A stretch of DNA of 40,281 nt from Betaproteobacteria bacterium (GTDB taxonomy: Bacteria > Pseudomonadota > Gammaproteobacteria > Burkholderiales > CAIKXV01), in NCBI GenBank assembly GCA_947458835.1, contig CANHBC010000007.1, positions 1-40,281 on the forward strand, in the 5' to 3' direction. The position numbers were made by a program, and so were the translations under genes. Below the pieces are notes generated by a model, which saw nothing but the letters and a program-made list of their open reading frames with translations, did not search any database and was not told the DNA's origin. How positions within the stretch are numbered: position 1 is the stretch's first letter; each line of letters begins with the position of its first letter. Positions 9,474 through 38,704 of this stretch are shown here, piece after piece.

Positions 9474-9591
9474 CCCAAACCCGGGTCAGACACGGGTTTC
9501 CGGCAGGCTGCTCCCGACGTCGCGGGAAGAACCGGAAAAACCGTGTCTGACCCTGGTTACGACCCAAACCCGTGTCTGACCCGGGTTTGGG
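9474..9591. repeat. REP-like intergenic repeat cluster A
   Basis: A perfect 26-nt inverted repeat (9474-9499 with 9566-9591) flanks a 66-bp spacer containing another, slightly diverged copy (9541-9558, CCGTGTCTGACCCTGGTT). The core of each unit is CGTGTCTGACCCGGGTTT. The cluster fills the gap between convergent pilU and rlmL; the pilU stop codon lies in the first CTGACCC core and the rlmL stop is 11 bp beyond the last arm. Related clusters are at 34463-34580 and 38548-38704. Confidence 0.85.
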
Positions 9592-9602
9592 CCTGGGCTT
9601 CG

Positions 9603-10748
9603 TCAGCGGTGCGAGCCGGCGACCATGCGGAACTCGAACAGCCGGCACTCGATCGCGCCGTTGTACAGCACCGTGCGCTTCGAGGCCTTCAGGCCGAGCA
9701 GCCCGGGCAGCTTCATTTCCGGCGAGATCAGGTAGGCCGTCCAGCCAGCGAATCCGGCCTTGAGCGCGGCGCCGAGCTGCGGGTAGAACAGCTCGAGCGA
9801 TTCGCGGCTCTCCATGCGCACGCCGTAGGGCGGATTGGACACCAGGATGCCGGCAGCGGCCGGGGCCTGCCGTCGGCGCACGTCGGCCACCTCGAACTGC
9901 ACCGCGCGATCGACGCCCGCGCGCACGGCGTTGGCGCGCGCGGCGACCACCGATGAGGCCTCGCGGTCGGAGCCGAACACCGACACCTGCCGGCGGCCAC
10001 GGTCGACCCGCTGGCCAGCCTCGTCGAGCAGCCGCCGCCACAGGGCAGCGTCGAAGCCGGTCAGCCGCTCGAATCCGAAGCTGCGGCCCAGCCCGGGGGC
10101 GATGCCCAGCACGACCTGCGCAGCCTCGATGGCGACGGTGCCGCTACCGCACATCGGGTCGAGGAAGGGCGTACCCGGCTGCCAGCCCGACAGCGCCACC
10201 ATGCCGGCGGCGAGGTTCTCGCGCAGCGGCGCTTCGCCGGTATCCGTACGCCAGCCGCGCTTGAACAGGGGCTCACCGGACAGGTCGAGGTACACGGTCA
10301 TCATGTCAGCGGTCAGGAACAACTGCACGCGGACATCGGGCGACACCGTATCCACGCTGGGCCGTACGCCCAGCTTCTCGCGGAACCGGTCGCACACCGC
10401 GTCCTTCACGCGCAGCGTCGCGAACTCGAGGCTGCGCAGCGGCGAGCGGATCGCCGACACATCCACGCGCAGGGTACGACCGACATCGAAGCGGGACGGC
10501 CAGTCGATCGACTTCACGAACGCATAGATGTCCTGCTCGTTCGCATAGCGCGTCTCGCCGAGGCTGAGCAGCACCCGGCTGGCGACACGGCTTTCCAGGT
10601 TGGCCCGGTAGCCGACAGCCAGGTCGCCGCTGAAGCCGACGCCACCGGGCACGGCGACCACACGCGTGCCCCCGAGGCGCGACAGTTCAACGACGAGCGT
10701 TTCCTCCAGTCCGCGTGGGCATGGCGCAAAATACCGGTTCGTGCTCAC
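9603..10748 (-). CDS. rlmL: THUMP-domain RNA methyltransferase, RlmL-like (23S rRNA m2G2445)
   Basis: Predicted SAM-dependent N2-guanine methyltransferase of 23S rRNA, homologous to the N-terminal half of the E. coli RlmKL fusion. The GTG start at 10748 gives 381 residues beginning VSTNRYFAPCPRGLEETL, typical of the family; a longer frame upstream adds Trp/Gly-rich sequence and is rejected. A THUMP RNA-binding domain spans about 45-155, the SAM-binding motif is FLDPMCGSGTVAIEAA (195-210), and the catalytic N6/N2-methylase motif is NPPYG (305-309). The RlmK-like half is a separate gene at 24021-25124. The gene is divergent from the acyl-CoA ligase (62 bp) and convergent with pilU across repeat cluster A. 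Confidence 0.88.
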   Translation of the reverse strand: MSTNRYFAPCPRGLEETLVVELSRLGGTRVVAVPGGVGFSGDLAVGYRANLESRVASRVLLSLGETRYANEQDIYAFVKSIDWPSRFDVGRTLRVDVSAIRSPLRSLEFATLRVKDAVCDRFREKLGVRPSVDTVSPDVRVQLFLTADMMTVYLDLSGEPLFKRGWRTDTGEAPLRENLAAGMVALSGWQPGTPFLDPMCGSGTVAIEAAQVVLGIAPGLGRSFGFERLTGFDAALWRRLLDEAGQRVDRGRRQVSVFGSDREASSVVAARANAVRAGVDRAVQFEVADVRRRQAPAAAGILVSNPPYGVRMESRESLELFYPQLGAALKAGFAGWTAYLISPEMKLPGLLGLKASKRTVLYNGAIECRLFEFRMVAGSHR

Positions 10749-10810
10749 CGGTCGCCACCATCCGGTCCGGGTCCCGGTACCTCCGCCATCGTTCGCATGC
10801 GCACTCCACC

Positions 10811-12532
10811 ATGAACGCCACGACCACCAACCTCGCACGGCTGCTGCAACGACACGCCACCACGCCAGACAAGGTGCTCTACCGGCAGTGGGAGGCGGGC
10901 ACGGCGGCCGAGGACGGGGACGGTGCGGGCTGGCGCGATTATACGGTCGCGCAGGTGATCGACCTCACTGCGCGCTGGCAGCAGGCGTTCCGGCTGCGCG
11001 GCTTCGAGAAGGGCGACCGCATCGCGATCTGCCTGAAGAACAGCGTGCAATGGGTGGCCATCGACCAGGCCGCGCTCGGTCTGGGCCTGGTCGTCGTGCC
11101 GCTGTACGTGATCGACAACGCCGAGAACATCGCCTGGTGCTTAGGCAACTCCGAAGCGCGGCTGCTGGTCCTGGACACACCGCGTGCGCTGCCCCGGCTG
11201 CGCGAACTGATCCCCGCGCTGCCGGCGGTGGTCTGCATCGAGGCATCGGCCGGCGCCCTGCCCCCGGGTGCGGCGGCACCGGCAGACACCGTCGAGACCT
11301 TCCTGCCGGCCGAAGCCCCTCCGTTCGAGGTGCAGCCGATGGAGCCCGACGCGCTGGCGACGATCGTCTACACCTCGGGTACCACCGGCAGGCCCAAGGG
11401 CGTCAAGCTCGGCCACGGCAACATCCTCGCCAACGTCGAGGCGAGCTCGAAGGTGATCCGCCTGCTCGACACCGATGTCGCGCTGTCGGTGCTGCCGATG
11501 TCGCACATGTTCGAGCGCACCTGCGGCTGCTACCTGATGCTGCACGCGGGCGTCTGCGTCGCCTACGCGCGCGGCATCCAGCAGCTCAGCGACGACCTCG
11601 CCGCGGTGCGCCCCACGCTGCTGGTCGCGGTGCCGCGGCTGTTCGAGCGCTTCCTCGCCCGCATCGAGCAGGCTGTCGCCGGCTCCGCGATCAGGCGGAC
11701 GCTGTTCAGGATGACGGTCCACTATGGCTGGAAGGTATTCCTCGGCGAGGCGAACGTGTTCGAGCGGATGGCCTACGCACGGCTGCGGCCGCTGGTCGCA
11801 GAACCGATCCTCGCAAAGCTGGGCGGGCGCCTGCGGCTCGCGGCGGCCGGCGGTGCGAAGCTCGAGCTGCGCATCGCGCAGACCTTCATCGGCCTGGGCC
11901 TCAAGATGATCCAGGGCTACGGCATGACCGAGGCCGCGCCGGTGATCGCCGGCAACCGCGAGGACGACAACGACCCGGGATCGGTCGGCCAACTGCTCGA
12001 AGGCTTCGAATCGCGCCTGTCCGAGGCTGGCGAACTGCTGGTGCGCGGGCCATCGGTGATGCAGGGCTACTGGCGCAACCCCGAGGCCACCGCCCGCGTG
12101 CTCTCGCCCGACGGCTGGCTGAACACCGGCGACATCGTCGAGATCCGGGACGGCCGGATCTACATCCGCGGCCGATCGAAGGACATCATCGTGCTGTCCA
12201 ACGGCGAGAAGTTCCCCCCGGAGGAGGCAGAGGCGGCGCTGCTCGACAACCCGGTGTTCGAGCAGGTCATGCTGGTGGGAGAAGGACGCCACTTCCTCAC
12301 GCTGGTCACCGTTACCCAGGAGACTGACGAAAAGAAGCTGGTGCGTCTGGCCAACCAGCAGCTGAAGGACTTCCCGCGCTACGTCCGGGTACGCCGCGTG
12401 GTCACTACGAAGGAACCGTGGACGATCGACAACGGCATGCTGACGCCGACGCTCAAGGTCAAGCGCCCGGTGGTCGCACAGCGCTTCGCGCATTCGCTCG
12501 AAGCCGTCTACGGCAACAATGGCGACGACTGA
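10811..12532 (+). CDS. Long-chain acyl-CoA synthetase (AMP-forming)
   Basis: Predicted fatty-acid:CoA ligase of the ANL superfamily that activates long-chain acids to acyl-CoA via an acyl-adenylate. The product from ATG 10811 is 573 residues. Visible motifs are IVYTSGTTGRPKG (185-197, phosphate-binding A3), LSVLPMSHMFERT (linker and gate region), YGMTEAAPV (A5), LNTGDIVEIRDGRIYIRGR (A7/A8 hinge) and SNGEKFPPEE (A10 region). The overall pattern, including an NGEK-type A10 segment, resembles the long-chain (FAA/FadD15-like) group more than medium-chain ligases. No signal peptide is present. It is monocistronic or followed by the methyltransferase gene 158 bp downstream. Exact substrate cannot be read from the sequence. 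Confidence 0.9.
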   Translation: MNATTTNLARLLQRHATTPDKVLYRQWEAGTAAEDGDGAGWRDYTVAQVIDLTARWQQAFRLRGFEKGDRIAICLKNSVQWVAIDQAALGLGLVVVPLYVIDNAENIAWCLGNSEARLLVLDTPRALPRLRELIPALPAVVCIEASAGALPPGAAAPADTVETFLPAEAPPFEVQPMEPDALATIVYTSGTTGRPKGVKLGHGNILANVEASSKVIRLLDTDVALSVLPMSHMFERTCGCYLMLHAGVCVAYARGIQQLSDDLAAVRPTLLVAVPRLFERFLARIEQAVAGSAIRRTLFRMTVHYGWKVFLGEANVFERMAYARLRPLVAEPILAKLGGRLRLAAAGGAKLELRIAQTFIGLGLKMIQGYGMTEAAPVIAGNREDDNDPGSVGQLLEGFESRLSEAGELLVRGPSVMQGYWRNPEATARVLSPDGWLNTGDIVEIRDGRIYIRGRSKDIIVLSNGEKFPPEEAEAALLDNPVFEQVMLVGEGRHFLTLVTVTQETDEKKLVRLANQQLKDFPRYVRVRRVVTTKEPWTIDNGMLTPTLKVKRPVVAQRFAHSLEAVYGNNGDD

Positions 12533-12690
12533 CCGGCTGTGCCGCGCTCAGGCGTACGTTTCACCTTCCTGCGCATCTTCGCCTTGATCGACGAGACCCG
12601 CGCGGTACCGCACCAGCCGCTGATCACGATCCCGGCCAACTGACTGCCCCACCGCAAGCCCTGATCGCCGATGCCACCGGAACCACGACC

Positions 12691-13449
12691 ATGACTGCCA
12701 CCCCACCCGTTGCCGCCCACCCTTCCGCCTTTCTGGATGGACCGCTGCCGCAACCGGCTCGACGTCGGCTGGCCAGGGCGATGGCAGCCGTGGTCGCCTG
12801 CGGCGCCCTGCCGGGATTGCCCGGGTGGCCCGGGGAGCCCGTGCAAGCGCATGCGCAGACGGTCCATGACCACAAGCACCGATTCACCGGCGCACAGGAC
12901 TGGGTCAAGGTGCTGGAAGACCCGAAGCGCGACGCCTGGCAGAAACCCCACCAAGTGATCCAGGCATTGGCACTGAAGCCCGATTCGGTCGTGGCGGACA
13001 TCGGCGCCGGCACGGGTTACTTCGCCACACGGCTGTCGAACATGCTGCCCTCCGGCCGGGTGTTCGCGGTCGACAGCGAACCGGACATGGTCAGATTCCT
13101 TGGCGAACGCGCGAAGAAGGAGGGCCTGAAGAACCTGGTGCCGGTGGCGGCCCTGCCGGACGACCCGAAGCTGCCCGCGCGGGTCGACCTGGTTCTGATG
13201 GTCAACGTGTTCCATCACGTCGAGAACCGGGACCGATGGCTCCGACGGATACGCGAATCGCTCGCGCCTGCAGGCCGTATCGCCATCATCGACTTCACGC
13301 TGGAGTCGCCGGAAGGACCACCGAAGGCTGCCCGGGTGACGGCGAAGCAGGTACGTACCGAACTCGAAAAGGCCGGTTACGTGCTCGCGAAGGAGCACCG
13401 TTTCCTGCCCAACCAGTTCTTCCTGGAGTTCATGCCGGCCCGTGGGTGA
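12691..13449 (+). CDS. Class I SAM-dependent methyltransferase with N-terminal export-like signal
   Basis: Rossmann-fold methyltransferase domain with motif I VADIGAGTGYF (101-111), the acidic SAM-ribose-binding residue in VFAVDSEPDM, and NVFHHVENR before an AIIDF strand. The family preamble DPKRDAWQKPHQVI (77-90) is typical of a widespread group of uncharacterised methyltransferases. The N-terminus carries an RRR cluster (24-26), a hydrophobic stretch AMAAVVACGALPG (30-42) and an AHAQ cleavage-like site (53-56). VVAC (34-37) also fits a relaxed lipobox. It could therefore be exported or be a lipoprotein, which is odd because SAM is cytoplasmic. An alternative start at ATG 12781 keeps the hydrophobic segment. 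The substrate is unknown. Its stop is 3 bp from that of the convergent HIRAN gene. Confidence 0.8.
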   Translation: MTATPPVAAHPSAFLDGPLPQPARRRLARAMAAVVACGALPGLPGWPGEPVQAHAQTVHDHKHRFTGAQDWVKVLEDPKRDAWQKPHQVIQALALKPDSVVADIGAGTGYFATRLSNMLPSGRVFAVDSEPDMVRFLGERAKKEGLKNLVPVAALPDDPKLPARVDLVLMVNVFHHVENRDRWLRRIRESLAPAGRIAIIDFTLESPEGPPKAARVTAKQVRTELEKAGYVLAKEHRFLPNQFFLEFMPARG

Positions 13450-13452
13450 ACC

Positions 13453-13875
13453 TCACCTCGGCAGCACCAGCACCACCTCGAACTCGATACGGTCCCAGGG
13501 ATTGCGTGCCTCGCGCAGTCGCGAGACGCGTGCCTCCAGTACGGCACCCAGGTCCATCTGCCGCGCGACCTGCGGGTTGTCCCGCCGCGGCACATAGCCG
13601 AGCTTGACCTGACGCCACTCGACCCGGACCGCGTTCGAGTCGTGGGGGTTGCCTGGCTCGCGCACCAGCGTGAGGCGGTCGCCCACCTGCATCTGGCCGA
13701 ACAGCGCCTCGCCGGCATGGAACTGGAACCCTGCCAGCGGCGAACTGCGCACCACGATCATAGCCTCGACCGGCGGGGCACGGCCGGCGACCTCGAGGGT
13801 CGCTGCCGGCCACGCAGCTGGCACGTCCAGCAAGCCGCCGAGCAGCAGCGCCGATGCCACCGCTGCCGCGCGCAC
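13453..13875 (-). CDS. Putative exported HIRAN domain protein
   Basis: Small protein (140 residues) with a HIRAN domain at about 45-110: SPLAGFQFHAGE, then GDRLTLVREPGNPHDSNAVR, then KLGYVPR. HIRAN domains bind DNA ends or damaged DNA in eukaryotic helicases, while stand-alone bacterial versions are uncharacterised. The start chosen is GTG 13875, five bp after the hemJ stop, which yields a signal-peptide-like N-terminus (MRAAAVASALLLGGLLDVPAAWPA); GTG 13858-13860 is an alternative that keeps the hydrophobic core. Export would be unexpected for a DNA-binding domain. It is the last gene of the six-gene minus-strand run that begins with the ferredoxin. Confidence 0.8.
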   Translation of the reverse strand: MRAAAVASALLLGGLLDVPAAWPAATLEVAGRAPPVEAMIVVRSSPLAGFQFHAGEALFGQMQVGDRLTLVREPGNPHDSNAVRVEWRQVKLGYVPRRDNPQVARQMDLGAVLEARVSRLREARNPWDRIEFEVVLVLPR

Positions 13876-13880
13876 GGCGG

Positions 13881-14297
13881 CTAGAACGGCTTGACCACCA
13901 CCAGCACCACCACCGCGAACAGCACGAGCACCGGCAGCTCGTTCATCCAGCGGAAATACACATGGCCACGGCGGTTGAGCCCTGCCTTGAAGCCTGCCAG
14001 CACCCGGCCGCACCACAGGTGGTAGGCCACCAGCAGCCCGGTCAGCGCAAGCTTCGCATGCAGCCAGCCGCCGCCGAACCCGTAGCCCATCCAGAGCGCG
14101 ATGCCGAACAGCAGCGCCAGCACCCCCAGCGGGGTCATGAAGCGGTACAGCTTGTGCGCCATCAGCAGCAGGCGGTCGCGCTCGGCTGTGCTGTCCTCGG
14201 GGACCATCGCCAGGTTCACGAAGATGCGCGGCAGGTAGAACAGGCCGGCGAACCAGCTGGTGATGAAGATGATGTGCAGGGACTTGATCCAGAGCAT
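13881..14297 (-). CDS. hemJ: Protoporphyrinogen IX oxidase HemJ
   Basis: Predicted membrane enzyme that oxidises protoporphyrinogen IX to protoporphyrin IX in haem synthesis, in place of HemG or HemY. The 138-residue product has four hydrophobic segments and the family start MLWIKSLHIIFITSWFAGLF with the conserved His8, plus RIFVNLA, AHKLYRFMTP, and the terminal FRWMNELPVLVL. The length matches HemJ (about 140-150). ATG 14297 is clear. It sits 26 bp after the ABC permease gene and 5 bp before the HIRAN gene on the same strand, so it is probably co-transcribed with both. CopD-like or DUF2214 membrane proteins are the only reasonable alternatives. Confidence 0.9.
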   Translation of the reverse strand: MLWIKSLHIIFITSWFAGLFYLPRIFVNLAMVPEDSTAERDRLLLMAHKLYRFMTPLGVLALLFGIALWMGYGFGGGWLHAKLALTGLLVAYHLWCGRVLAGFKAGLNRRGHVYFRWMNELPVLVLFAVVVLVVVKPF

Positions 14298-14323
14298 GGC
14301 GGCAGGGTCGACAGGAAAGAGGA

Positions 14324-15142
14324 TCAGCGTAGCAGCCGCCGGCGCGCGAGCACCAGGGCGATATGGAAGGCCACCAGGCCGTAACCCGCCAGCACCGCCA
14401 CGTGCAGCAGCACCTGGCCGGGTACCTCGCCGGCCAGCAGCGGCCGGGCGATCGCCACCGCATGGGTCAGCGGCAGCACGGACGAGACCGACTGCAGCCA
14501 GTCCGGCAACTGCGCGACCGGGAAGAACACCCCGCAGACCAGCATCATCGGCGTGACCACCAGCGTGAAGTAGTACATGAAGAAGTCGTAGCTCGGCGCG
14601 AGCGCGGTGACGATGAGCCCGAGGCTGGCAAAGCACAACCCGACCAGCAGCGCGAGCGGTACCAGCCAGAGCACCCGCCACGAATCTGCCAGCCCGAGCA
14701 GCCAGACCACGACCAGGATCGCCACGCCGGAGAACAGGCTCTTGGTCGCCGCCCAGAGCGCCTCTCCGGTGACGATGTCGTCGAGCGACAGCGGCGCGTT
14801 GAGGATCGCGTCCCAGGTCCGCTGCACGTGCATCCGCGAGAATGCCGAGTAGAGCGCCTCGAAGGTTGCGGTGTTCATCGTGCTGTAGCAGATCGTGCCC
14901 GCGGCCAGGAAGGCGATGTAGGGCAGCCCGTCGACTGCCGGCAGCAGCCCGCCCAGCCCGTAGCCCAGCGCGAGCATGTAGAAGGCGGGGTCGGCGAAGT
15001 TGCCGAGCATCGACGGGATGGCGAGCTTGCGCCAGACCAGGAAGTTGCGCCGCCACACGTGCAGCGCACGCAGGCTGAACGCGGGCAGCCGCCAGGGCGA
15101 TGCGCGCGCGACGGTGCGCCGAGACTGGGCGTCGGCAGCCAT
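14324..15142 (-). CDS. ABC-2 type transporter permease, NodJ-like
   Basis: Inner-membrane permease of a NodIJ-type ABC exporter, 272 residues from ATG 15142. Six hydrophobic stretches are visible after a cytoplasmic N-terminus, and the ABC-2 signature appears as YFTLVVTPMMLVCGVFFP followed by LPDWLQSVSSVLPLTHAV, which is very close to the NodJ pattern. A longer upstream frame overlaps the ATPase gene and is rejected. It lies 2 bp after the ATPase gene. NodIJ proteins export lipo-oligosaccharide in rhizobia, but NodIJ-like pairs are common in non-nodulating betaproteobacteria, where the substrate is unknown. No nod genes are nearby. Confidence 0.9.
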   Translation of the reverse strand: MAADAQSRRTVARASPWRLPAFSLRALHVWRRNFLVWRKLAIPSMLGNFADPAFYMLALGYGLGGLLPAVDGLPYIAFLAAGTICYSTMNTATFEALYSAFSRMHVQRTWDAILNAPLSLDDIVTGEALWAATKSLFSGVAILVVVWLLGLADSWRVLWLVPLALLVGLCFASLGLIVTALAPSYDFFMYYFTLVVTPMMLVCGVFFPVAQLPDWLQSVSSVLPLTHAVAIARPLLAGEVPGQVLLHVAVLAGYGLVAFHIALVLARRRLLR

Positions 15143-15144
15143 GG

Positions 15145-16089
15145 TCAGTCGCGCATCTCGCGGCCGGTGAGCTTCAGGAACAGGTCCTCCAGGTTCGCCG
15201 GTCGGTGCAGGTGGCGCAACCCGGGCCATGCGGCGAGGCTCGCCACGAGCGGTCCGGCGTCATGGGCGTAGCAGAATACCGTCTCGCCGGTGCGCTCGCA
15301 GCGCTCGCTCAGCGGCGCGGCATGCGCCGAGGCCCATTCGTCGACCCCGTCGCCGTACACCTCGACCACCTGCGGCTCGATGTGTTCGGCGATCAGCGCA
15401 CGCGGCTCGCCAGTGGCGATCACCCGTCCCTGGTCGAGCACCGACAAGCGGGTGCACAGCCGCTCGGCCTCCTCCATGAAATGAGTGGTCAGCAGCAGCG
15501 TCTTGCCCTGGGCGGTGAGCTGCTTGAGCCGGTCCCAGATCACGTGGCGCGCCTGCGGGTCGAGCCCGGTCGTCGGCTCGTCGAGGATGACCAGGTCTGG
15601 ATCGTTGACCAGCGCGCGCGCCAGCGTCAGCCGGCGCTTCATGCCACCCGACAGCGCCTGGATCTTCGCGTCGCCTCGCCCTGAGAGATTGGCGAACTCG
15701 AGCAGGTCCGGGATGCGGGCCTTGACCTGCGCATCGGACAGCCCGAAGTAGCGGCCGAACACCAGCAGGTTCTCGCTCACGGTGAAATCGGGGTCGAGGC
15801 TGTCGACCTGGGGTACGACGCCGACGCGCTGGCGTGCCTCGCGCGCCTGGCGCGGCAGGTCATAGCCAAACAGGTCGATCGAACCGCCATCAGGCTCGAC
15901 CAGCCCGAGGCAGAGCTTGAGCGTCGTGGTCTTGCCAGCACCGTTCGGGCCGAGCAGCCCGAAGCATTCGCCAGCGAAAAGTTCAAGGTCGACGCCGGCC
16001 ACCACTTCGCGGTCGCCATAGGACTTGCGCAGGCCGCGCACCCGCGCGACCGCTGTCCCGGCGTCAGCCCGCGCAGCGGCGGCGCTCAT
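15145..16089 (-). CDS. ABC transporter ATP-binding protein, NodI-like
   Basis: ATPase partner of the adjacent NodJ-like permease; 314 residues. It has Walker [10 protein letters not shown] (47-55), Q-loop VVPQ, signature LSGGMKRR (146-153), Walker B LVILDEP (166-172) and the switch His in TTHF (H203). A C-terminal extension of about 80 residues follows, as in NodI and DrrA-type exporters. Its ATG overlaps the hydrolase stop (ATGA) and its own stop is 2 bp before the permease start, so the two transporter genes and the hydrolase are translationally coupled. Confidence 0.92.
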
Positions 16090-16724
16090 TCGACGCCGGC
16101 ACTGGCCAGCGCACGCCGCACCAGCCGTGCCAGCACCGGCAGCCGCCCGTGGAAGAAGTGGCCGGTACCCGGCACCAGCGACACCGGCAGTTCCTGTGGA
16201 CGTGCCCAGTCGAGCACCTGCTGCAGCGGCACCACGTCGTCGTCCTCGCCGTGGATCACCACGGTCGACGGACGCACCGGCCCGACCTCGAACCGGCCCA
16301 CCGCCGGCGCGACCAGCACCACCAGCCGGAACGGATCGCCCGCCGCCTCGGCGCGGGCAGCCAGCCGGCTCGCCACGAAGCCGCCGAACGAGAAGCCGGC
16401 CAGGACCGCCGGCAGCGCACCGAACCGCACACGCAGCGCCGCCATCACGAGCAGCAGGTCATCCGTCTCGCCGTTGCCGTGGTCGTGCACGCCTTCGGAC
16501 TCGCCGACGCCGCGGAAGTTCGGCCGCGCCACGACATGCCCTGCTTCGAAGAACGTCCGCGCCAGCGTGGTCACCACCTTGTTCTCATTGGTGCCGCCGA
16601 ACAGCGGATGCGGATGCGCGACCAGCGCAATACCGCGGCGGCCCTCGCCGGGGTCGTTCAGCTTCACCTCGATGTTGCCTGCCGCGCCGCGGACGTCGAA
16701 GCGGCTCAGCGTCGAAGGCTTCAT
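16086..16724 (-). CDS. Alpha/beta hydrolase (dienelactone-hydrolase-like fold)
   Basis: Cytoplasmic serine hydrolase of 212 residues. The nucleophile elbow is GFSFGG (S112), an acidic residue follows in HGEDDDVVP (D161-163) and the catalytic His is in PGTGHFF (H189). The early HPHPLFGG and [11 protein letters not shown] segments are typical of the COG2945 group, for which no physiological substrate is established. It is 3 bp downstream of the ferredoxin gene and overlaps the NodI-like gene by 4 bp, so it belongs to the same transcript. There is no signal peptide. Confidence 0.88.
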
Positions 16725-16727
16725 CGG

Positions 16728-17036: not shown

Positions 17037-17064
17037 CGGCGGGTCCGGACGGAAGGAACGGCCA

Positions 17065-18235: not shown

Positions 18236-19193
18236 ATTCTATGACGTTTTCAACGGCGATGCGGATGGCCTCTGCGCGCTGCACCAGCTGAGGCTGGCCG
18301 AGCCCCGCGACGCCATCCTGGTGACCGGCACCAAGCGCGACATCGAGCTGCTCGAGCGGGTGGAGGCCGGACGCGGGGACGAGATCACCGTGTTCGACAT
18401 CTCGCTCGAGGTCAACCGCGATGCGCTGATGCGCACCCTTGACGCTGGTGCCCGCGTGCGCTGGTTCGACCACCACTTCGCCGGCACGATCCCGCAGCGG
18501 CCGGGCTTCCGCGCCCATATCGACGGCTCGGCAGACACCTGCACCAGCCTCATCGTGGACCGCTTCCTCAACGGCAAGTACCGCGCATGGGCGGTTGTCG
18601 CCGCCTTCGGCGACAACCTGCGCGAGGCCGCATGGAAGGCCGCCGAGCCGCTCGAGCTCAACGAGATGCAGATGCACACGCTGCGCGTGCTGGGCGAATG
18701 CCTGAACTACAACGCCTACGGCGAGTCGGTCGACGACCTTCACTACCAGCCCGACGAACTGTACGAAACCCTGCGCCGCTACGACAACCCGCTCGACTTC
18801 GTAGTGGCCGAGCCGGTCTACGACGTGCTGCGCACGGCACTGGCCGATGACCTGGTCCGCGCGGGCGACCTCGACCCGGCGATGGTGCGCGAGTCGGCGG
18901 CCGCGTTCATCCTGCCCGACGCTGCCTGGTCGCGCCGCATCTCCGGCTTCTTCAGCAACCAGCTCGCCAACGCTTTCCCGATGCGCGCACATGCGGTGCT
19001 CACCGTGCGCGCCGGCGGCTACCTGGTCAGCGTGCGCGCCCCGGCCAGCGTCCCGGCGGGGGCCGACGCCCTGTGCCGCCAGTTCGAGACCGGCGGTGGC
19101 CGTTCACGCGCGGCCGGCATCCAGTTGCTGCCCGAGGCGGACCTGCCGCGCTTCCTCGACGCCTTGGAGAAGGCATACCCCGGCCGCAGCTAG
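18231..19193 (+). CDS. DHH family phosphoesterase
   Basis: Predicted metal-dependent phosphoesterase of 320 residues. The metal-binding motifs are NGDADGLCAL (D10, D12), VFDIS (D56) and the eponymous WFDHHF (D80-H81-H82). The C-terminal third has a DHHA1-like substrate-binding end with GGGRSRAAGIQ near residue 290, although the usual GGGH/GGGG histidine is replaced by Arg. Relatives include nano-RNases, exopolyphosphatases and RecJ; this single-domain group is uncharacterised. AGGA about 8 bp upstream may serve as ribosome binding site. The TAG stop is the first three bases of repeat cluster D. Confidence 0.85.
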   Translation: MKFYDVFNGDADGLCALHQLRLAEPRDAILVTGTKRDIELLERVEAGRGDEITVFDISLEVNRDALMRTLDAGARVRWFDHHFAGTIPQRPGFRAHIDGSADTCTSLIVDRFLNGKYRAWAVVAAFGDNLREAAWKAAEPLELNEMQMHTLRVLGECLNYNAYGESVDDLHYQPDELYETLRRYDNPLDFVVAEPVYDVLRTALADDLVRAGDLDPAMVRESAAAFILPDAAWSRRISGFFSNQLANAFPMRAHAVLTVRAGGYLVSVRAPASVPAGADALCRQFETGGGRSRAAGIQLLPEADLPRFLDALEKAYPGRS

Positions 19194-19271
19194 CGGGGGG
19201 TCAGGTCTTTAGCGGGGGGTCAGGTCTTTAGCGGGGGGCAGGTCTTGCCTTTTGCCAGGGGTCAGGTCCTT
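19191..19271. repeat. Tandem repeat cluster D between DHH and cupin genes
   Basis: TAGCGGGGGGTCAGGTCTT is repeated exactly at 19191-19209 and 19210-19228, then with one T deleted at 19229-19246; a diverged fourth copy, AGGGGTCAGGTCCTT, is at 19257-19271. The array fills the gap between the convergent genes and provides the TAG stop of the DHH gene and the TGA stop of the cupin gene (19262-19264, minus strand). It shares the GGGTCAG core with clusters A to C. Confidence 0.9.
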
Positions 19272-19651
19272 CCCTCCTGCGCAAAGAACCGGTTCGGCGC
19301 CAGGAAGAACGCCAGCACCAGCGCCCCCTTCGGCGAGCGCGCCGCATGCCGGCTGCCGGCCGGGCGCCAGACGAAGCTGCCGGCGGCGCACTCCCCCTCG
19401 TCGTCCTCGATCGCGCCCTCGAGCACGTAGGACTGCTCGATACGCACGTGCTCGTGGTCGCCGAGCACCGCCCCCGGCTCCCAGCGGAACAGCGCAGTCA
19501 GCAGGCCGGTCGACGGATCCTCGAGCAGCACCTTCATCCGGATCAGCGGCGAAGGCGTGTCGCGCCACGGTAACGCGTCGACGTCGACAAAGCGTGAGGC
19601 CAGCGCGGACAGGGCGGCATGCTGCGGCAGGTCGGGGGTGGCGGCGCTCAT
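19262..19651 (-). CDS. ChrR-like cupin domain protein
   Basis: Small single-domain cupin (129 residues) resembling the C-terminal cupin of the anti-sigma factor ChrR and stand-alone dioxygenase-like cupins. Motif 1 is represented by PGAVLGDHEHVRIEQSYVLEG (metal-ligand His67, His69 and Glu72 candidates in the segment 59-79) and motif 2 by AGSFVWRPAGSRHAA (His102). There is no zinc-binding anti-sigma N-terminal domain, so an anti-sigma role is unlikely. The ATG at 19651 is clear. Its C-terminus ends inside repeat cluster D. It is divergent from the amidohydrolase gene with a 105-bp gap, suggesting shared control. Substrate unknown. Confidence 0.82.
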   Translation of the reverse strand: MSAATPDLPQHAALSALASRFVDVDALPWRDTPSPLIRMKVLLEDPSTGLLTALFRWEPGAVLGDHEHVRIEQSYVLEGAIEDDEGECAAGSFVWRPAGSRHAARSPKGALVLAFFLAPNRFFAQEGRT

Positions 19652-20638: not shown

Positions 20639-20675
20639 AGCGCTGGAGGCGGGCACGTCCTCCAGGTACCGGAGC

Positions 20676-23957: not shown

Positions 23958-24000
23958 GGCGGCTGACCTTGTGGCCAATGGCGCTACGGGGTCAGCCGCC
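23958..24000. terminator. Hairpin between convergent Bug (2) and RlmK-like genes
   Basis: A perfect 11-bp stem, GGCGGCTGACC (23958-23968) with GGTCAGCCGCC (23990-24000), encloses a 21-nt loop that itself can pair GCCA with TGGC. There is no T-tract, but the position between convergent stops suits a bidirectional or Rho-assisted terminator. The right arm also contains GGGGTCAG, the repeat-family core. Confidence 0.45.
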
Positions 24001-29626: not shown

Positions 29627-29678
29627 ATCGGCGGGTACCCGGGCGGACCGGACGGCGCAAACCGATCCAGGATCCGCC

Positions 29679-31124: not shown

Positions 31125-31186
31125 GCTTTCAGTCCGGTTGGGTGTCGTCAGGGCCTGCACGTGCAAGGCGCGTGCCAGCAGGCCTC

Positions 31187-32707: not shown

Positions 32708-33309
32708 CGCTCCGCCAGGCCGGCCCGGCGACGGGCCGCTTCCAGCCGCGCGAGACGGGCCTCGAGCCGCTCGGCGTCGTCGCGCAGGTGGTCGACCTCG
32801 TCGATGAACGCGGAGACCTCGTCCGGGCGGGCCAGCACCGGCTGCTCCTCGATGAGGAACTGCCGCGACGAGCGTGCGATCGAACGGGCGACCTCGCGGG
32901 GTACGTCCGCCGCGGCGCGCGCTGCACGGCCGATGCGGTGTGCAGCGATGTCACCCACGACCCGGCTGAGGTCCGCCTCGGCGTCCCAGCGCAGGTTCGC
33001 AAACAGGTATTCCAGGTCGGCGGCCAGGCCGACGTTACCGGTCACCGTGACCGCCCGGCGCGCCTGCATGTCGCGGGCGAGCAGCCGCGGCAGCGAGGAC
33101 GCAGGCACGGTGATGGTCACCGCCGGCTCGCGTCCGGAGGCCGGTTCGAACAGACCTTCCGCGGTGACCGCGAGTTCCACCAGGACCGGCGGCAGTTCGA
33201 GCCGGATCACGTCACCGGCGTGCGGCAGCAGACGTGCGGTTGCCCAGGACTGGGCGGCGAGCAGGTGGTTCAGCGCGCCGATGATCACCGCTTCGACTGG
33301 CAGGCGCAT
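32704..33309 (-). CDS. ubiJ: Ubiquinone biosynthesis accessory factor UbiJ
   Basis: SCP2-domain protein that binds lipid intermediates and scaffolds the cytosolic ubiquinone synthesis complex. From ATG 33309 the product is 201 residues: SCP2 fold at about 10-110 ([23 protein letters not shown] in the first part, then [23 protein letters not shown]), a linker, and a C-terminal coiled coil ([20 protein letters not shown]). A longer frame upstream runs through a terminator and is rejected. The gene overlaps ubiB by 4 bp. Confidence 0.92.
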
Positions 33310-33361
33310 GGGAATCGCAGGGGTATCGGGCACGGGAACGGGAGAGCCCGGAGGATGCCCG

Positions 33362-33397
33362 AAAACGACAACGGGCGGAGAGGTCCGCCCGTTGTCG
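33362..33397 (-). terminator. Rho-independent terminator after the Tim44-like gene
   Basis: CGACAACGGGCGGA (33366-33379) and TCCGCCCGTTGTCG (33384-33397) form a perfect 14-bp stem with a GAGG loop, followed on the minus strand by TTTT (33365-33362). This is the clearest intrinsic terminator in the window. It would end the DUF971-ubiE-Tim44 transcript and separate it from ubiJ-ubiB. Confidence 0.85.
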
Positions 33398-33449
33398 CCA
33401 CTGCTGTCGGAAGCCTCGCCAGGCTGGCGAGCGGTCCCGGGGATGCGCG

Positions 33450-34376
33450 TCAGGCCTGCGCCGGCGCGTCCTGTTCGACCTGCTGGATCCCGGCGATCAG
33501 CCAGCTCGAGTTCGGATTGGACAGATCCTTTTCGACGTGCCACACCTCGTCGACCGGCTCCGGGTTGAACGCATCGTCTTCACGCACAAGGCCGGTGAAC
33601 CGGACGCTGGCAATCATCTTGTCGTTCTCGGTCACCACCTGCATCACCTGGGCGTCGATCGACACCACCTCGGTACGCTGGGCGACGTCACCACGCTCCT
33701 GCATCTGCATCGCCACCGCGGCGTACACCTGAGGCGTGGTGTAGTCGCGGATGTCGTTCAGGTTCTTGGCGTCGTTCGCGGCCTGCAGCCGGATGAACGA
33801 CGTCTTGGCGTTGCGCACGAACCCCTGAACGTCGAAGTCGGCGGGAATGCGCCCTTCGGCCACGGCCGGCGCGACCGGGGTGCGTACCGCGCCCCCGACC
33901 GGCGGCGCCTCGACCGGAACCTGCTGGCCGTTGCTCATCCGGTACGAGGCCGGCGCCTGGGACTGGGCCCGGGCACGGAACATCCGGATCGCCAGGAACG
34001 CGACCAGCGCGAGCAGCGCGAACATCATGAAGTCGCCGCCGGACAGGCCGTCAAACGCACCGCCAAAGAACATCGCCGCGAGCAGGCCGCCTGCCATCAG
34101 GCCGGCCACCGGACCCAGCCAGCCGGGCATCGACTTGCCCGCGGCGCCGGCTGCCGCCCCCGCCGCGGCTGGAGCGGCAGCCGGGGTACCCGGGGTCTGC
34201 TGGCCCTGAGCCTGCTGCGCCGGCGCTGCCGGCTTCTGGGGCTGCACGGCGTCGCGCTTCATGCCGACGTTGTTGCCGCCGCCGAACCGGCGCTTCTGCG
34301 CCTCGGCGTCGAAACTGGCTGCGGTCAGGCTCAACCCGACTACGCCAGCCACCATCCAGGTCATCAGCTTGTTCAT
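33450..34376 (-). CDS. Tim44-like domain membrane protein
   Basis: Predicted membrane protein of 308 residues from ATG 34376. A signal/anchor (MVAGVVGLSLTAASFDAEA, 7-25) is followed by a Gln/Ala/Pro-rich linker, two hydrophobic segments around 85-130 (WLGPVAGLMAGGLLAAMFFGG and FMMFALLALVAFLAIRMF), and a Tim44-like domain at about 180-300. That domain resembles the inner-membrane-binding part of mitochondrial Tim44 and the C-terminal domain of ribosomal protein mL45; bacterial members are uncharacterised. It is flanked by ubiE (214 bp upstream) and ubiJ, the usual betaproteobacterial order, and ends at a strong terminator. Confidence 0.88.
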   Translation of the reverse strand: MNKLMTWMVAGVVGLSLTAASFDAEAQKRRFGGGNNVGMKRDAVQPQKPAAPAQQAQGQQTPGTPAAAPAAAGAAAGAAGKSMPGWLGPVAGLMAGGLLAAMFFGGAFDGLSGGDFMMFALLALVAFLAIRMFRARAQSQAPASYRMSNGQQVPVEAPPVGGAVRTPVAPAVAEGRIPADFDVQGFVRNAKTSFIRLQAANDAKNLNDIRDYTTPQVYAAVAMQMQERGDVAQRTEVVSIDAQVMQVVTENDKMIASVRFTGLVREDDAFNPEPVDEVWHVEKDLSNPNSSWLIAGIQQVEQDAPAQA

Positions 34377-34462
34377 TGATTCTCCGTGGGAAAAGGACCT
34401 GCACAACAGGCCCATGAAGCGTTTGACAGGTTACCGCAAGAAAGGTTCCCCCGTGTAGGTTC

Positions 34463-34580
34463 CCCCGTGTCAGACACGGATTTCTGACACGGATTTCTCT
34501 GGTGGAAAACCGTGTCAGACACGGGTTACCCGGGTTACCTGGACCGGGCCCTGGAAAACCGTGTCTGACCCGGGTTGTCG
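34463..34580. repeat. REP-like intergenic repeat cluster B
   Basis: Located between the Tim44-like gene start and the ubiE stop. It contains CCCGTGTCAGACACGG (near 34464), a partial CTGACACGGATTTC, GAAAACCGTGTCAGACACGG (34505-34524) and GAAAACCGTGTCTGACCCGG (34554-34573). Two copies are short self-palindromes (CCGTGTCAGACACGG), the others are the CGTGTCTGACCCGGGTT form of cluster A. The final 11 bp GGCCTGGGCTT before the ubiE stop is also found next to the rlmL stop. Confidence 0.8.
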
Positions 34581-34590
34581 GCCTGGGCTT

Positions 34591-35325
34591 TCAGAGGCGG
34601 TAGCCGCGGTGCAGGGCGACCACGCCCGCGCTCAGGTTGAAATACTCGACCCGCTCGAAGCCGACGTCGACCATCATCTGCCTGAGGGTTTCCTGGTCGG
34701 GGTGCCGGGCGATCGATTCGGCGAGGTAGCGGTAGCTGGCGCTGTCGCGAGCGACCGCCTTTCCCATCGCCGGCAGCAGGTGCATCGTGTACAGGCGGTA
34801 CAGCGGATCGAGCGGCGACCAGACCTTCGAGAATTCGAGCACCAGCAACCGGCCGCCCGGGCGCAGCACGCGGAACATCTCGCGCAGGGCGACGTCCTTG
34901 TGGGTCATGTTGCGCAGGCCGAACGCCACGCTCACGCAGTCGAAGGTGCGGTCGGGGAAGGGCAGGTGCTCGGCATCGCAGCGCACCGCCTCGATCAGGC
35001 GCCCGTGGTCGAGCACCCGGTCGCGGCCGCGCGCGAGCATCGATGCGTTGATGTCGGTGAGCAGCACGGTACCTGACGGACCGACGCGCTCCTGGAACGC
35101 CAGCGCCAGGTCGCCGGTTCCGCCGGCGATGTCGAGGACCCTCTGCCCCGGCCGCACGCCGCTCTGGTCGACGGTGAATCGCTTCCAGAGCCGGTGCATG
35201 CCGCCGGACATCAGGTCGTTCATCAGGTCGTAGCGGCCGGCGACCGAGTCGAAGACGCCAGCCACGCGCCGCGCCTTCTCTTCTTCCGCCACCGACTCGA
35301 AGCCGAAATCGACCTTGCGGGTCAT
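34591..35325 (-). CDS. ubiE: Ubiquinone/menaquinone C-methyltransferase UbiE
   Basis: SAM-dependent C-methylase of ubiquinone (and, where present, menaquinone) synthesis; cytoplasmic, membrane-associated. The 244-residue product has [19 protein letters not shown] (7-25), [19 protein letters not shown], motif [12 protein letters not shown] and the UbiE signatures FGLRNMTH and [15 protein letters not shown]. It is 22 bp after the DUF971 gene. ATG 35325 gives the standard N-terminus ([12 protein letters not shown]). Confidence 0.96.
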
Positions 35326-35347
35326 CGCATTCCTTTCGGGCCGACGT

Positions 35348-35797
35348 TCAGCCGACCGGGTCGCGGCTGGCCTTGGCCGCGTCGAGGCGCTGCAGGTAGC
35401 GCGCCCACATCGTGTCCTGATTGCACCCGTAATCGTAGAGCAAAGCCCACGAGAAGATACCGGTGTCGTGGCCGTCCGAGAACACCAGCTTGACCGCGTA
35501 GGTGCCGACCGGATCGATGTCGCTGATGGTGACGCCGCGCTTGCCTACCTGCAGCGTACCCTCGCCCGGGCCGTGTCCGCGCACCTCCGCCGACGGCGAG
35601 TGCACGCGCAGGAATTCGGTGGGCAGGGAGAACTGGCGTCCATCGGAGAAGGTGACCTCTAGCCGGCCCGACGACTGGTGCAGCACCAGTTCGGTAGGGA
35701 CCGGAGCCGCGGCGGACGGCGCGGGCGCGGCGGCAGTCGGGGCGGAAGGATCATGCATCGCGGGAGGGGCTGCTGCGGGTGTCGGGGAGCGCATCAT
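35348..35797 (-). CDS. DUF971 domain protein (gamma-butyrobetaine hydroxylase N-terminal-like)
   Basis: Small protein with a non-conserved Ala/Pro-rich leader (1-34) followed by the DUF971 domain: [39 protein letters not shown], and the C-terminal [19 protein letters not shown]. The single domain corresponds to the N-terminal region of gamma-butyrobetaine hydroxylase; stand-alone copies next to ubiE are common in betaproteobacteria and related to iron-sulfur or carnitine-like chemistry only by analogy. Start is uncertain: ATG 35797 (149 residues) or ATG 35758 (136). It is divergent from phoB and precedes ubiE by 22 bp. Confidence 0.85.
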
Positions 35798-35822
35798 ACG
35801 CGCACCGGCGCCAGGTGCCCGG

Positions 35823-35856
35823 CCGTCACCTGCCCGTCACACAAGGTTCATACAAT
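35823..35856 (+). promoter_or_regulatory. Pho box and -10 element of phoBR
   Basis: CCGTCACCTGCCCGTCAC (35823-35840) consists of two CCGTCAC half-sites at an 11-bp period, close to the PhoB consensus CTGTCAT-N4-CTGTCA. A TACAAT -10 hexamer (35851-35856) lies exactly 10 bp downstream of the 18-bp box, the canonical class II spacing in which PhoB replaces the -35 element. It points to phosphate-starvation autoregulation of phoBR. The phoB ATG is 40 bp further on. Confidence 0.75.
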
Positions 35857-35895
35857 CCGCCACGCCGCTCCGGCCCGCCTCCTGCAGGAAGATCG

Positions 35896-36585
35896 ATGCC
35901 CGCCACCATACTGGTCGTCGAAGACGAACCCGCCATCCAGGAACTGATCGCCTACAACCTGCGCCAGGCGGGCCACGAGGCGATGCGCGCCGAAACGGCG
36001 GAGCAGGCGCTGAACCTCGTGCGCGACGTGCTGCCCGACCTGGTGCTGCTCGACTGGATGCTGCCCGGACAGTCCGGTATCGAGTTCGCCCGGCGGATGA
36101 AGGCCGACCGGCGCACGCGCGAGGTGCCGATCATCATGCTGACCGCCCGCGCCGAGGAACCGGACAAGCTGCTCGGCCTCGAGACCGGGGCCGACGACTA
36201 CATCACCAAGCCGTTCTCTCCTCGGGAGCTCAACGCCCGCATCAAGGCCGTGCTGCGCCGCCGGGCCCCCGAAGCCACCGACGACCGCGTCGAGGTCGGT
36301 GGCCTGCAGATCGACCCGGCCAGCCACCGCGTGACGGCCGGGGATGTCGCACTGGTGCTCGGCCCGACCGAGTTCAGGCTGCTGCACTACCTGATGACCC
36401 ATGCCGAGCGCGTCCACTCGCGGGTCCAGTTGCTCGACCAGGTCTGGGGCGACCACGTGTTCGTCGAGGAGCGGACGGTGGACGTACACATCCGGCGGCT
36501 GCGCAAGGCGCTCGAACCCACCGGGCACGACCGGCTCGTGCAGACCGTGCGCGGCAGTGGCTACCGACTGTCGGACTCGCCCTGA
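35896..36585 (+). CDS. phoB: Phosphate regulon response regulator PhoB
   Basis: OmpR/PhoB-type two-component regulator of phosphate-starvation genes, 229 residues. The receiver domain has acidic-pocket D10/E11, phosphoacceptor D53 (LLDWMLPG), T83 and K105. The winged-helix DNA-binding domain begins near 130 ([14 protein letters not shown]) and contains [28 protein letters not shown] and the C-terminal [12 protein letters not shown] 35896 gives the usual start [14 protein letters not shown]. It is followed by phoR and preceded by a well-spaced Pho box. Confidence 0.95.
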
Positions 36586-36668
36586 ACACGGGCCAGTCGC
36601 ACGCGGCAGCGCGACGCAAGTAGAATCCCGCATCCCCAGCGCGGGATGTGATCGAGGAAGGAGTCCGG

Positions 36669-37994
36669 GTGCGCGGATACTGGCGAGGAGCGGCAGGATG
36701 GCTCGCCCTGTGGCTGGCGCTGGCCGGGACCGCGGCTGCAACCGCAGGCCCGGTGCCCGCGCTGGTCGGGCTGGCGGCCTGGCTTGCATTGCTGTACCTG
36801 CGCCAGGCCTGGTACATGGGGTCGCTGCTGCACTGGCTCGACCAGCCGCAGGGCACGCCGGTGCCGCCCGGCTCCGGGATCTGGTCCGAGGCGTTTGCCT
36901 ATCTGGCGCGGCTGCTGCGACGCCAGCGGCAGAACGAAGCCGACCTGCGCAGCGCGCTCGAACGCTTCCAGAGCGCAACGGCGGCGATGACCGAGGCGGT
37001 GATCATCCTCGACGAACTCGATCGCATCGAATGGTGTAACCCGAGTGCCGAGCACTACTTCGAGATCGACGCACGGCGCGACCTCGGCCGGCAGCTCACC
37101 TACATCGTTCGCCAGCCGCAGTTCGTCGAGTACCTGGATGAACAGAACTTCGCCGAGCCGTTCGTGCTGCGCGGCGCCCGCGGTGGCGAGACCACGCTCA
37201 CCGTGCAGCTCGTTCCCTACGGCAACCAGCAGAAGCTGGTGATCAGCCGCGACATCACGCGCTGGGAGCGGCTGGAGGCGATGCGCCGCGACCTGGTCGC
37301 CAACGTCTCGCATGAGCTGCGCACGCCGATCACCGTGCTCGCCGGCTACCTCGAGACGCTGAACGACCAGGCCGTGCCCGACCCGGCCTTCCAGAAGCGC
37401 GCGATGCAGCTGATGACGCAGCAGACCAGCCGCATGCAGAATCTGGTCGAGGACCTGCTCACACTGTCCCGGCTCGAGAACGCCCGCGGGCCGTCGGCCG
37501 AACAGCCGGTGGACGTGCCGAAGATGGTGCACGGCCTGCACCAGGAGGCGATGGCGCTGTCGGCCGGGCGCCACCAGTTCCTGCTGGATGTCGACGAAGA
37601 CCTGTGGCTCACCGGCGCGGAGGCCGAACTGCGCAGCGCCTGCCTGAACCTGGTGACCAACGCGATCCGCTACACCCCGGCGAAAGGGCGGATCACCATC
37701 CGCTGGCGACCGACCCAGGACGGTGGCGGCGTCTTCTCGGTCGTGGATACCGGCATCGGCATCGCCCCCGAACACATCCCGCGGCTCACTGAACGCTTCT
37801 ACCGCGTCGACCGTAGCCGTTCGCGAGAGACCGGCGGCACCGGCCTGGGCCTGGCCATCGTCAAGTACGCGCTGTCGCACCACCAGGCGCGGCTGGAGAT
37901 CGACAGCGAGCCCGAGCAGGGCAGCACCTTCAGCGCGATCTTCCCGGCGCGGCGCACCTGTACCGCCCCGGTGGCCAGGGCGGCGACCGTCTGA
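36669..37994 (+). CDS. phoR: Phosphate regulon sensor histidine kinase PhoR
   Basis: Membrane histidine kinase that controls PhoB. The start chosen is GTG 36669 because GAGGAAGGAG (36654-36663) lies 5 bp upstream; GTG 36648 would add seven residues and has no ribosome binding site. The product (441 residues) has two adjacent N-terminal hydrophobic segments (about 5-45) with almost no periplasmic loop, a PAS domain (about 95-195), the phosphoacceptor H215 in VSHELRTPI, and ATP-binding motifs N (LVTNAIRYT), G1 (DTGIGI), F (FYRVDRSRS) and G2 (GTGLGLAIV). The 62-bp gap to phoB has no terminator. Confidence 0.94.
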   Translation: MRGYWRGAAGWLALWLALAGTAAATAGPVPALVGLAAWLALLYLRQAWYMGSLLHWLDQPQGTPVPPGSGIWSEAFAYLARLLRRQRQNEADLRSALERFQSATAAMTEAVIILDELDRIEWCNPSAEHYFEIDARRDLGRQLTYIVRQPQFVEYLDEQNFAEPFVLRGARGGETTLTVQLVPYGNQQKLVISRDITRWERLEAMRRDLVANVSHELRTPITVLAGYLETLNDQAVPDPAFQKRAMQLMTQQTSRMQNLVEDLLTLSRLENARGPSAEQPVDVPKMVHGLHQEAMALSAGRHQFLLDVDEDLWLTGAEAELRSACLNLVTNAIRYTPAKGRITIRWRPTQDGGGVFSVVDTGIGIAPEHIPRLTERFYRVDRSRSRETGGTGLGLAIVKYALSHHQARLEIDSEPEQGSTFSAIFPARRTCTAPVARAATV

Positions 37995-38008
37995 GGCTGT
38001 CGCCTCAG
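37991..38008. terminator. Short hairpin spanning convergent phoR and HIT stops
   Basis: CTGAGGC (37991-37997) and GCCTCAG (38002-38008) form a perfect 7-bp stem with a TGTC loop, and each arm contains one of the convergent stop codons. Convergent TGA stops pair by definition, so only about four of the seven pairs are informative. No T-tract follows. Confidence 0.3.
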
Positions 38009-38448
38009 CCCCGCACGGACGGCAGGCTGGCGTCCAGCGCAGCGGCGACCGTGCGGTCGTATTCAGCCTCGGGCATCGGCAGCGGTACCGGCCTCCCCGT
38101 CCGGCGAGGCGCCCAGATCGGATCGGGGAAATGCGGATCGCCGAAAAAGCGCGGAATCACGTGCCAGTGCAGGTGCGGCGTCAGGTTGCCGAGGCTGGCG
38201 AGGTTGACCTTGTCCGGGCGCAGCAGGTCACGCAGCGTGCGCTCGGCGGCGAACACTACCCCGAGCAGGAACGATCGATGCGCAAGCTCGAGATCGGTCA
38301 TCTCGCGCACGTGCGCCCGCCAGATCACCCTCAGGAAGCCGGGGTAGTCCGGATCCGCCACGCGGACCACGCGCAGGCGCTCGTCCGACCAGAGCATGAC
38401 GCCGCCCGGCGTAGCACACAGTTCACACTCGTGAGTCCCGCCCGACAT
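38005..38448 (-). CDS. HIT family nucleotide-binding protein
   Basis: Histidine-triad protein of 147 residues; family members hydrolyse nucleoside phosphoramidates or dinucleotide polyphosphates. The triad is HLHWHVIPRF (92-101), with an N-terminal CELC (8-11) that may help bind metal, as in some HIT enzymes, and LASLGNLTPHLHWH matching the catalytic strand. It is convergent with phoR (10 bp) and has repeat cluster C upstream of its start. Substrate is not evident. Confidence 0.9.
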   Translation of the reverse strand: MSGGTHECELCATPGGVMLWSDERLRVVRVADPDYPGFLRVIWRAHVREMTDLELAHRSFLLGVVFAAERTLRDLLRPDKVNLASLGNLTPHLHWHVIPRFFGDPHFPDPIWAPRRTGRPVPLPMPEAEYDRTVAAALDASLPSVRG

Positions 38449-38547
38449 CGATGCTCCCGCCCCAAGTGCCAGATGAAGGCAGCGATCATCGCAGAACCTG
38501 ATCTTCCCGAGGCAGCCATGCCACCCATTGCCCGACCCGAATTGCAG

Positions 38548-38704
38548 AAACCCGGGTCAGACACGGATTCCCCCTCGATTCCGATACGGCCAGGGAGCGG
38601 ACCCGAGGGTGCGGAAATACGTGTCTGACCCGGGTGCGGAAATGCGTGTCTGACCCGGGTTTGGGCCCGGGTTGGGAAATCCGTGTCTGACCCGGGTTTG
38701 TCGG
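38548..38704. repeat. REP-like intergenic repeat cluster C
   Basis: Located between the HIT gene start and the lpdA stop. One inverted unit (38548-38569) is a perfect 22-nt partner of 38678-38699. Between them is a tandem pair of 25-nt units (38609-38633 and 38634-38658) that differ at one base, each holding CGTGTCTGACCCGG. The fourth unit, AATCCGTGTCTGACCCGG (38678 on), continues into TTTGTCGG and ends 34 bp before the lpdA stop. The remainder of the 289-bp gap has no gene. Confidence 0.85.

Follow-up and report, generated by a model that had tools for sequence, protein, structure and literature searches.

In the TIRYT/TIRtron system, as described in passages of Di Nocera 2013 (PMC3733652), a Y1 gene lies within inverted repeats, some of which carry the motif GGGGWSAS; copies of these TIRs are dispersed as dimers or clusters, and one genome can hold several families. 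A second relevant group is TnpAY1 subclass 2.1, near which, according to parts of Quentin 2018 (PMC6006769), no REP-like sequences were found, and whose division 2.1.2 has an HTH-like C-terminus. The REPIN/RAYT system of Pseudomonas, in the sections of Bertels and Rainey 2011 (PMC3116915) that deal with it, comprises extragenic inverted doublets, a family-specific transposase and single-unit remnants.

We compared with these systems the repeats of a window of 40,281 nucleotides, that is, the whole stretch of DNA analysed (positions 1-40,281 of contig CANHBC010000007.1, assembly GCA_947458835.1), from a Betaproteobacteria bacterium (CAIKXV01) whose own genome is hereafter named G000. A sequence-only reading had described there one family of short REP-like palindromes in four intergenic clusters, non-autonomous and perhaps mobilised by a tyrosine transposase encoded elsewhere. 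Results for the window are given in Table 1. The repeats are genome-wide, and the four clusters fall into two families having only GGGTCAG in common. Clusters 1, 2 and 3 do share one unit in both orientations, as had been noticed, two of the three cores of cluster 2 being GTGTCAGACAC variants; cluster 1 does contain a perfect inverted pair of 26 nt, and the 22-nt pair reported in cluster 3 is contained in an outer-arm match of 26 nt at 96%. The family A core GGGTCAGACACG occurs 8 times in the window, against a shuffle mean of 0.02, and GTGTCTGACCC has 10 matches with at most one mismatch, against 1.0 expected. GGGTCAG itself was found 5 times outside the four clusters (6 if the one at the pilU stop, 9469, is counted), and whole-window shuffles average 7.2. 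The isolated cores at 7075-7083 and 23988-23995, once taken for further copies, were rejected as family members, the GGGTCAG count being no higher than the shuffle average. Upon folding, clusters 1 and 2 gave z scores of -7.4 and -5.6; for cluster 3 the folding covered a single 26-nt arm only (z about 0), and the 19191-19271 array, as a stretch, folds no better than shuffles (z +0.9). In this array, TAGCGGG precedes cores one, two and three, and the called minus-strand gene at 19262-19651 has its stop codon inside the last core.

Table 1. Repeats of the window, with their cores and gene settings (positions in the window).
Feature	Position	Strand	Details
Family A cluster 1	9474-9591		Cores 9483-9494 (+), 9542-9553 (-), 9571-9582 (-)
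Cluster 1 outer arms	9474-9499 / 9566-9591		Perfect 26-nt inverted repeat
Cluster 1 setting			Convergent 3' ends: PilT/PilU-family ATPase end 9472, RlmL-like gene end 9603
Family A cluster 2	34463-34580		Cores 34467-34478, 34512-34523 (both GTGTCAGACAC variants), 34560-34571 (-)
Cluster 2 setting			3' of ubiE gene 34591-35325(-)
Family A cluster 3	38548-38704		Four cores inside 38554-38693: one +, three -
Cluster 3 setting			3' of dihydrolipoyl dehydrogenase gene 38738-40246(-)
Family B array	19191-19271	+	Cores 19197-19209, 19216-19228, 19234-19246 (1 mismatch), 19258-19270 (1 mismatch)
Isolated GGGTCAG	7076-7082	+	Chance level; outside both families
Isolated GGGTCAG	23989-23995	+	Chance level; outside both families

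In the whole genome, the A core was found in 98 exact copies (reversed-pattern control, 0), and the A 17-mer, with up to 2 mismatches, had 99 matches versus 0 for its reversed control. The 19191-19271 array had been assigned to the same dispersed family. It does share GGGTCAG, but it represents a second family, B, whose core GGGGTCAGGTCTT has 77 exact copies in the genome (reversed-pattern control, 0) and 89 matches versus 0 reversed when one mismatch is allowed. Units and clusters were counted, with at most one mismatch, in 282,465 bases of the own genome around matches, giving 109 units in 44 clusters for A and 89 units in 42 clusters for B. GGGTCAG lies on the outer side of inverted pairs. 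Adjacent units are most often arranged + then - (A 34/65, B 28/47), followed by the same direction (A 26, B 19) and by - then +, found 5 times and in A only. The A arm consists of AAACCCGGGTCAGACACG, then variable bases, then about TTTCC; the B arm is GGGGTCAGGTCTTGCCTTTTGCC, and the commonest whole B element is a near-perfect hairpin of about 53 nt. Folded as single copies, one B element reached z -12.3 and one A element z -9.2, so that the inverted doublet forms a single hairpin as in REPINs; an A unit by itself folds weakly, with a mismatch. Loops of B elements are distinct in 27 of 28 cases in G000 and in 22 of 23 in the congener G005.

A Pfam Y1_Tnp search of the genome (E<=0.001) detected two Y1 (HUH) genes, both above the PF01797 cut-off. 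The first, on contig C140 (273-aa ORF), has A units on both sides, forming a 20-nt inverted repeat; the second, on contig C20 (296 aa), has B units on both sides, forming a 23-nt inverted repeat, and its stop codon lies inside the right arm. The suspicion of a tyrosine transposase elsewhere is thus supported, and the check proposed with it, a search for a Y1 gene flanked by the unit of the clusters, was positive. The A-type ORF (L063:1964-2785) continues across one flanking A unit (KPVSDPG) and ends within the following one, and its G003 orthologue (L131) does likewise. The A protein carries the motifs NHVH, WE and YIETNP, and the B protein NHYH, FQ and YVERNP; the HuH and W motifs of both fit the subclass 2.1 table, and the tabulated YIELNP and Y[IV]HLNP match only at Y---NP. 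In the B protein, a weak HTH_23 match (E=0.0025) is below the Pfam cut-off; the A protein has none. By sequence, 4er8 is matched weakly (E=0.032).

Two kinds of known element were considered and rejected. An autonomous IS200/IS605 insertion sequence does not fit two Y1 genes only, 29% identical and without near-identical copies. Classical REP/RAYT does not fit either, the 5' GT[AG]G tetranucleotide being absent from both consensus units; NCBIfam REP_Tyr_transpos scores of 71.1 and 73.6 bits are under the cut-off of 80, which also counts against the explanation that we prefer below. The label REP/BIME-like given by the sequence-only reading holds for the mobile-element part and fails for the GTAG-tagged kind, the motifs fitting the TIRYT branch. 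The likeness to TIRYTs (PMC3733652) includes Y1 genes bracketed by inverted repeats, which is the case for both genes here, dispersed copies as dimers and clusters in both A and B, the presence of two families, and a GGGGWSAS-type motif, matched exactly by the B sequence GGGGTCAG and at 7/8 positions by the A consensus CGGGTCAG. What differs is that passages of PMC3733652 contain neither a syntenic locus with differing repeats nor complementary non-conserved flanks. With subclass 2.1 (Bertels group 1) both proteins share, according to parts of PMC6006769, the HuH/W motifs, Y---NP and perhaps a long protein with a C-terminal extension, whereas each gene here has a dispersed repeat family and those parts report none. 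REPIN/RAYT systems, as presented in sections of PMC3116915, resemble ours in the long hairpin of the inverted doublet, the variable spacer, the extragenic location, the specific transposase of each family and the single-unit remnants; unlike them, the present families have no GTAG/GTGG tag, and their transposases belong to another group by motif. Judged by motif, both transposases appear to belong with the TIRYT / subclass 2.1 group of the literature and not with the GTAG-tagged REP/RAYT.

The mobile-element reading is well supported, and the kind is already known, namely TIR repeats with TIRYT transposases. The clusters very probably represent two non-autonomous hairpin elements (REPIN-like TIR families), present as copies and remnants, each element being dispersed by its own Y1/HUH transposase. 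A whole element would be an inverted arm pair with GGGTCAG outermost, family A being dispersed in trans by the TIRYT-type gene on C140 and family B by the gene on C20. By analogy with RAYT/IS200 enzymes, the enzyme would cut and move single-stranded hairpins. Direct observation covers the family found around each transposase gene, the copy numbers, the intergenic 3'-end placement, and presence or absence between species. Among 48 named loci of C140-protein relatives, several of which are cut short by contig ends and two of which (L309 and L311) lie on one record, flanking inverted repeats exceeded those of any of 20 mononucleotide shuffles in 32, and 17 had GGGTCAG upstream and CTGACCC downstream. 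The nearest named relative, 67% identical, comes from a Burkholderiales MAG and has flanks of a third type, C.

Placement was analysed with genes called by a simple codon-model caller. The intergenic versus coding count suggested by the earlier reading showed copies to be mostly extragenic: 100/109 A and 80/89 B units (about 90%) are intergenic, in own-genome regions that are 88.6% coding and that were chosen for repeat matches, not sampled at random from the genome. When clusters at contig ends or inside called genes (7 A, 6 B) are set aside, a 3' end is the closest gene terminus for 30 of 37 A and 32 of 36 B clusters. Convergent gaps hold 15 of these A and 20 of these B clusters; among neighbouring genes of these regions, 49 of 226 pairs are convergent. 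Such figures would also suit selected bidirectional terminators or stabilisers of mRNA 3' ends, whose likeness reflects function and where transposases merely land. The strong hairpins of the A and B copies folded above argue for this as well, together with a short T-tract at the end of the A arm (3-5 T in 71/109 units), one terminator-like match in cluster 2 (34465-34492), and the convergent gap L122, where species without B have other hairpins, seen by eye, in G001 (L321), G010 (L313) and G004 (L331). However, terminator-like matches in the window do not exceed those of shuffles (3 vs 6.9; 6 vs 7.0), only one being in a cluster; B arms have no T-tract (0-1 T in 78/89 units, never more than 3); the ubiE and lpd gaps are without element in 12 of 16 species states; and function alone leaves unexplained that each core flanks one Y1 gene. 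We regard it as quite improbable that function alone accounts for the repeats; a terminator role may exist on top of their mobile-element nature. A neighbour's TGA lies inside the core (distance -9) in 5/42 B clusters, of which one adjoins the transposase gene, and in 1/44 A clusters. The idea that the repeat supplies the stop of pilU (CTGACCC) was rejected, since all ten pilU genes end in GTCTGA, those next to repeat-less gaps included.

We then turned to eleven genomes of the genus (G000-G010), A being also counted in 49 genomes of other families. Exact A cores amount to 98 in G000, 89 in G003, 70 in G010, 13 in G002, 11 each in G005, G007 and G009, 6 in G006, and 0 in G001, G004 and G008; the 49 genomes outside the genus have 0-2 each, no more than the reversed control there. 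Within the genus, exact B cores number 77 in G000, 65 in G005, 43 in G007, 30 in G003, 16 in G009, 13 in G006, 6 in G010, 4 in G008, 3 in G002 and 0 in G001 and G004. The third family, C (GGGTCAGAGACG), counted in the genus, has 89 exact cores in G009, 55 in G006, 51 in G010, 6 in G003, 2 in G007, 1 each in G001, G002 and G008, and 0 in G000, G004 and G005. Y1 genes are present in 8 of the 11 genomes. Against the preferred explanation stand G002, whose 13 A cores are accompanied by no Y1 gene found at 84% completeness, and G010, which combines 70 A and 51 C cores with a single Y1 gene that has C-type flanks. G008 (L128, L134) has two further Y1 genes with other flanking repeats, GGGGTCAGGGTCGATTT and GGGGCCAGGCCCC.

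Orthologous gaps differ in content between these congeners. In the pilU gap, compared in ten species (G001, with a contig break, was left out), A is present in G000 and C in G006, G009 and G010, there is none in G002, G003, G004, G005 and G007, and G008 has GGGGCCAGGCCCC, a unit also standing twice upstream of its second Y1 gene. Eight species were compared at the ubiE gap, where only G000 and G010 have A, and at the lpd gap, filled only in the same two; G004, G008 and G009 are outside both comparisons (at ubiE the motif missed two, and G009 had no close match). The earlier reading was prepared to abandon mobility for a core no commoner in intergenic DNA than composition predicts, or for a conserved repeat in the gaps of all relatives; neither was found.

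The number of gaps common to two species with both flanks was 10 between 38 B clusters of G000 and 26 of G005, 7 between 41 A clusters of G000 and 12 of G003 (two being the transposase locus), and 3 between the same 41 and 12 A clusters of G010; in three comparisons across families, no gap was common with both flanks, and 3, 3 and 4 gaps agreed in one flank. That ten B gaps of G000 are also B-filled in G005 means that many copies are old or that sites were re-used, which counts against the mobile-element explanation. These common gaps, and the lineage-specific arms at common B gaps, are what one could see if positions were ancient and static and sequences were homogenised by conversion within each lineage, with no ongoing mobility. 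This is very unlikely in view of the empty gaps in several congeners, and conversion inside one family does not yield the L121 gap, which by species holds B (G000), A (G003), C (G006), C with variants (G010), E-type (G005) or a variant (G007). The L093 gap is similar, with B in G000, C in G006 and G010, and E-type in G005. In G002 (L222, L234), miniature relics with little beyond two arm ends occupy the places of whole B elements of G005 (L178, L171), which suggests that B elements may decay by internal deletion.

What is of interest is one syntenic transposase locus with differing flanking repeats among sister species. The A-type gene has mgtE and mtgA (NCBIfam names) as its neighbours in G000, G003, G005, G006, G009 and G010. 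DNA on the mgtE side is 90-91% identical to that of G000, DNA on the mtgA side 80-84% (for G006, over 58 bases only), and the A-type proteins are 59-90% identical to each other. The repeats that flank them are A in G000 and G003, C in G006, G009 and G010, and GGGGTCWGACCCC (E) in G005. The B gene of G000 occupies the dnaB-phoH gap, where G005 has B elements only, and in G003, G005 and G007 the B gene is at another, common locus. We tentatively propose, as a possibility that may well prove wrong, that a single vertically inherited Y1 transposase was re-targeted between sister species (ACACG, AGACG and GGGGTCWGACCCC types), and that the hairpin population followed. Elements at inherited gaps would in part have been re-used or rewritten, template switching copying an arm together with its flank onto the opposite one. 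If true, the sister species would form a natural series of specificity switches in a single-strand transposase whose subclass has been reported without REP-like repeats. Two families with their own genes coexist in one genome, and the congeners offer a series of repeats around one syntenic gene; small proteins and short oligonucleotides would thereby allow direct tests of recognition in this enzyme group and of the way in which element populations are replaced.

Finally, arms and flanks were examined for complementarity. Outer flanks of B elements are complementary between left and right, with a mean run of 2.63 vs 0.56 in shuffled flanks (n=52), 3.70 vs 0.79 in G005 (n=23) and 1.79 vs 0.60 in G000 (n=28), values reached in 0/5000 shuffles each time. 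Inner B arms also match within elements beyond shuffles (0/5000). For A, flank complementarity is small (0.81 vs 0.46, P=0.0036, n=54; G000 alone, P=0.0054) and does not reach significance when G003 (n=9) or G010 (n=11) is taken by itself, and inner-arm matching is weak (total P 0.07 in G000, 0.016 in G003, 0.19 in G010); both weaknesses count against the preferred explanation. Neighbouring B units of same direction have 5-9 nt of common flank in 8/18 pairs of G000 and 7/10 of G005, and the 19191 array of the window repeats TAGCGGG in the same way. Two sites have a flank palindrome that changes from one species to another, its left and right sides changing together. According to parts of PMC8604942, template switching homogenises inverted-repeat arms and inverts spacers (PMC8794818 is a further paper on the process). 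We infer that arm and flank matching reflects template-switch rewriting, with selection for the hairpin or landing in hairpins as alternatives. Replication template switching at hairpins would make arms match each other, could extend the palindrome into the flanks, and might multiply flank-plus-arm units into arrays. Titles and abstracts of the searched literature, subscription journals being outside its scope, describe neither flank complementarity nor cognate switching.

HUH enzymes act on hairpins. Elements could thus insert into loops of existing hairpins and acquire palindromic flanks without later rewriting, and G002 indeed has a hairpin with a 9-bp stem at the site of the G005 element L172-1945. 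Nevertheless, the flank palindromes at L171 are AAAGACGGG/CCCGTCTTT in G005 vs AAGGACGGG/CCCGTCCGC in G002, the L169 palindrome similarly differs between G005 and G007, and at the L183/L095 site, which is empty in G002, this species does not have the left half present in G000. On this evidence, which consists of few sites in alignments of diverged species, with G002 empty sites giving a mixed picture, we consider hairpin landing rather unlikely as the sole source of the palindromic flanks. One B element, with a long loop, lies in frame within the error-prone DNA polymerase gene (NCBIfam NF004225) of G000 (L079:1759-1845; C238:1958-2044). The same element is found in G005 (L173:960-1046), the frame being open in both species and the loop residues different.
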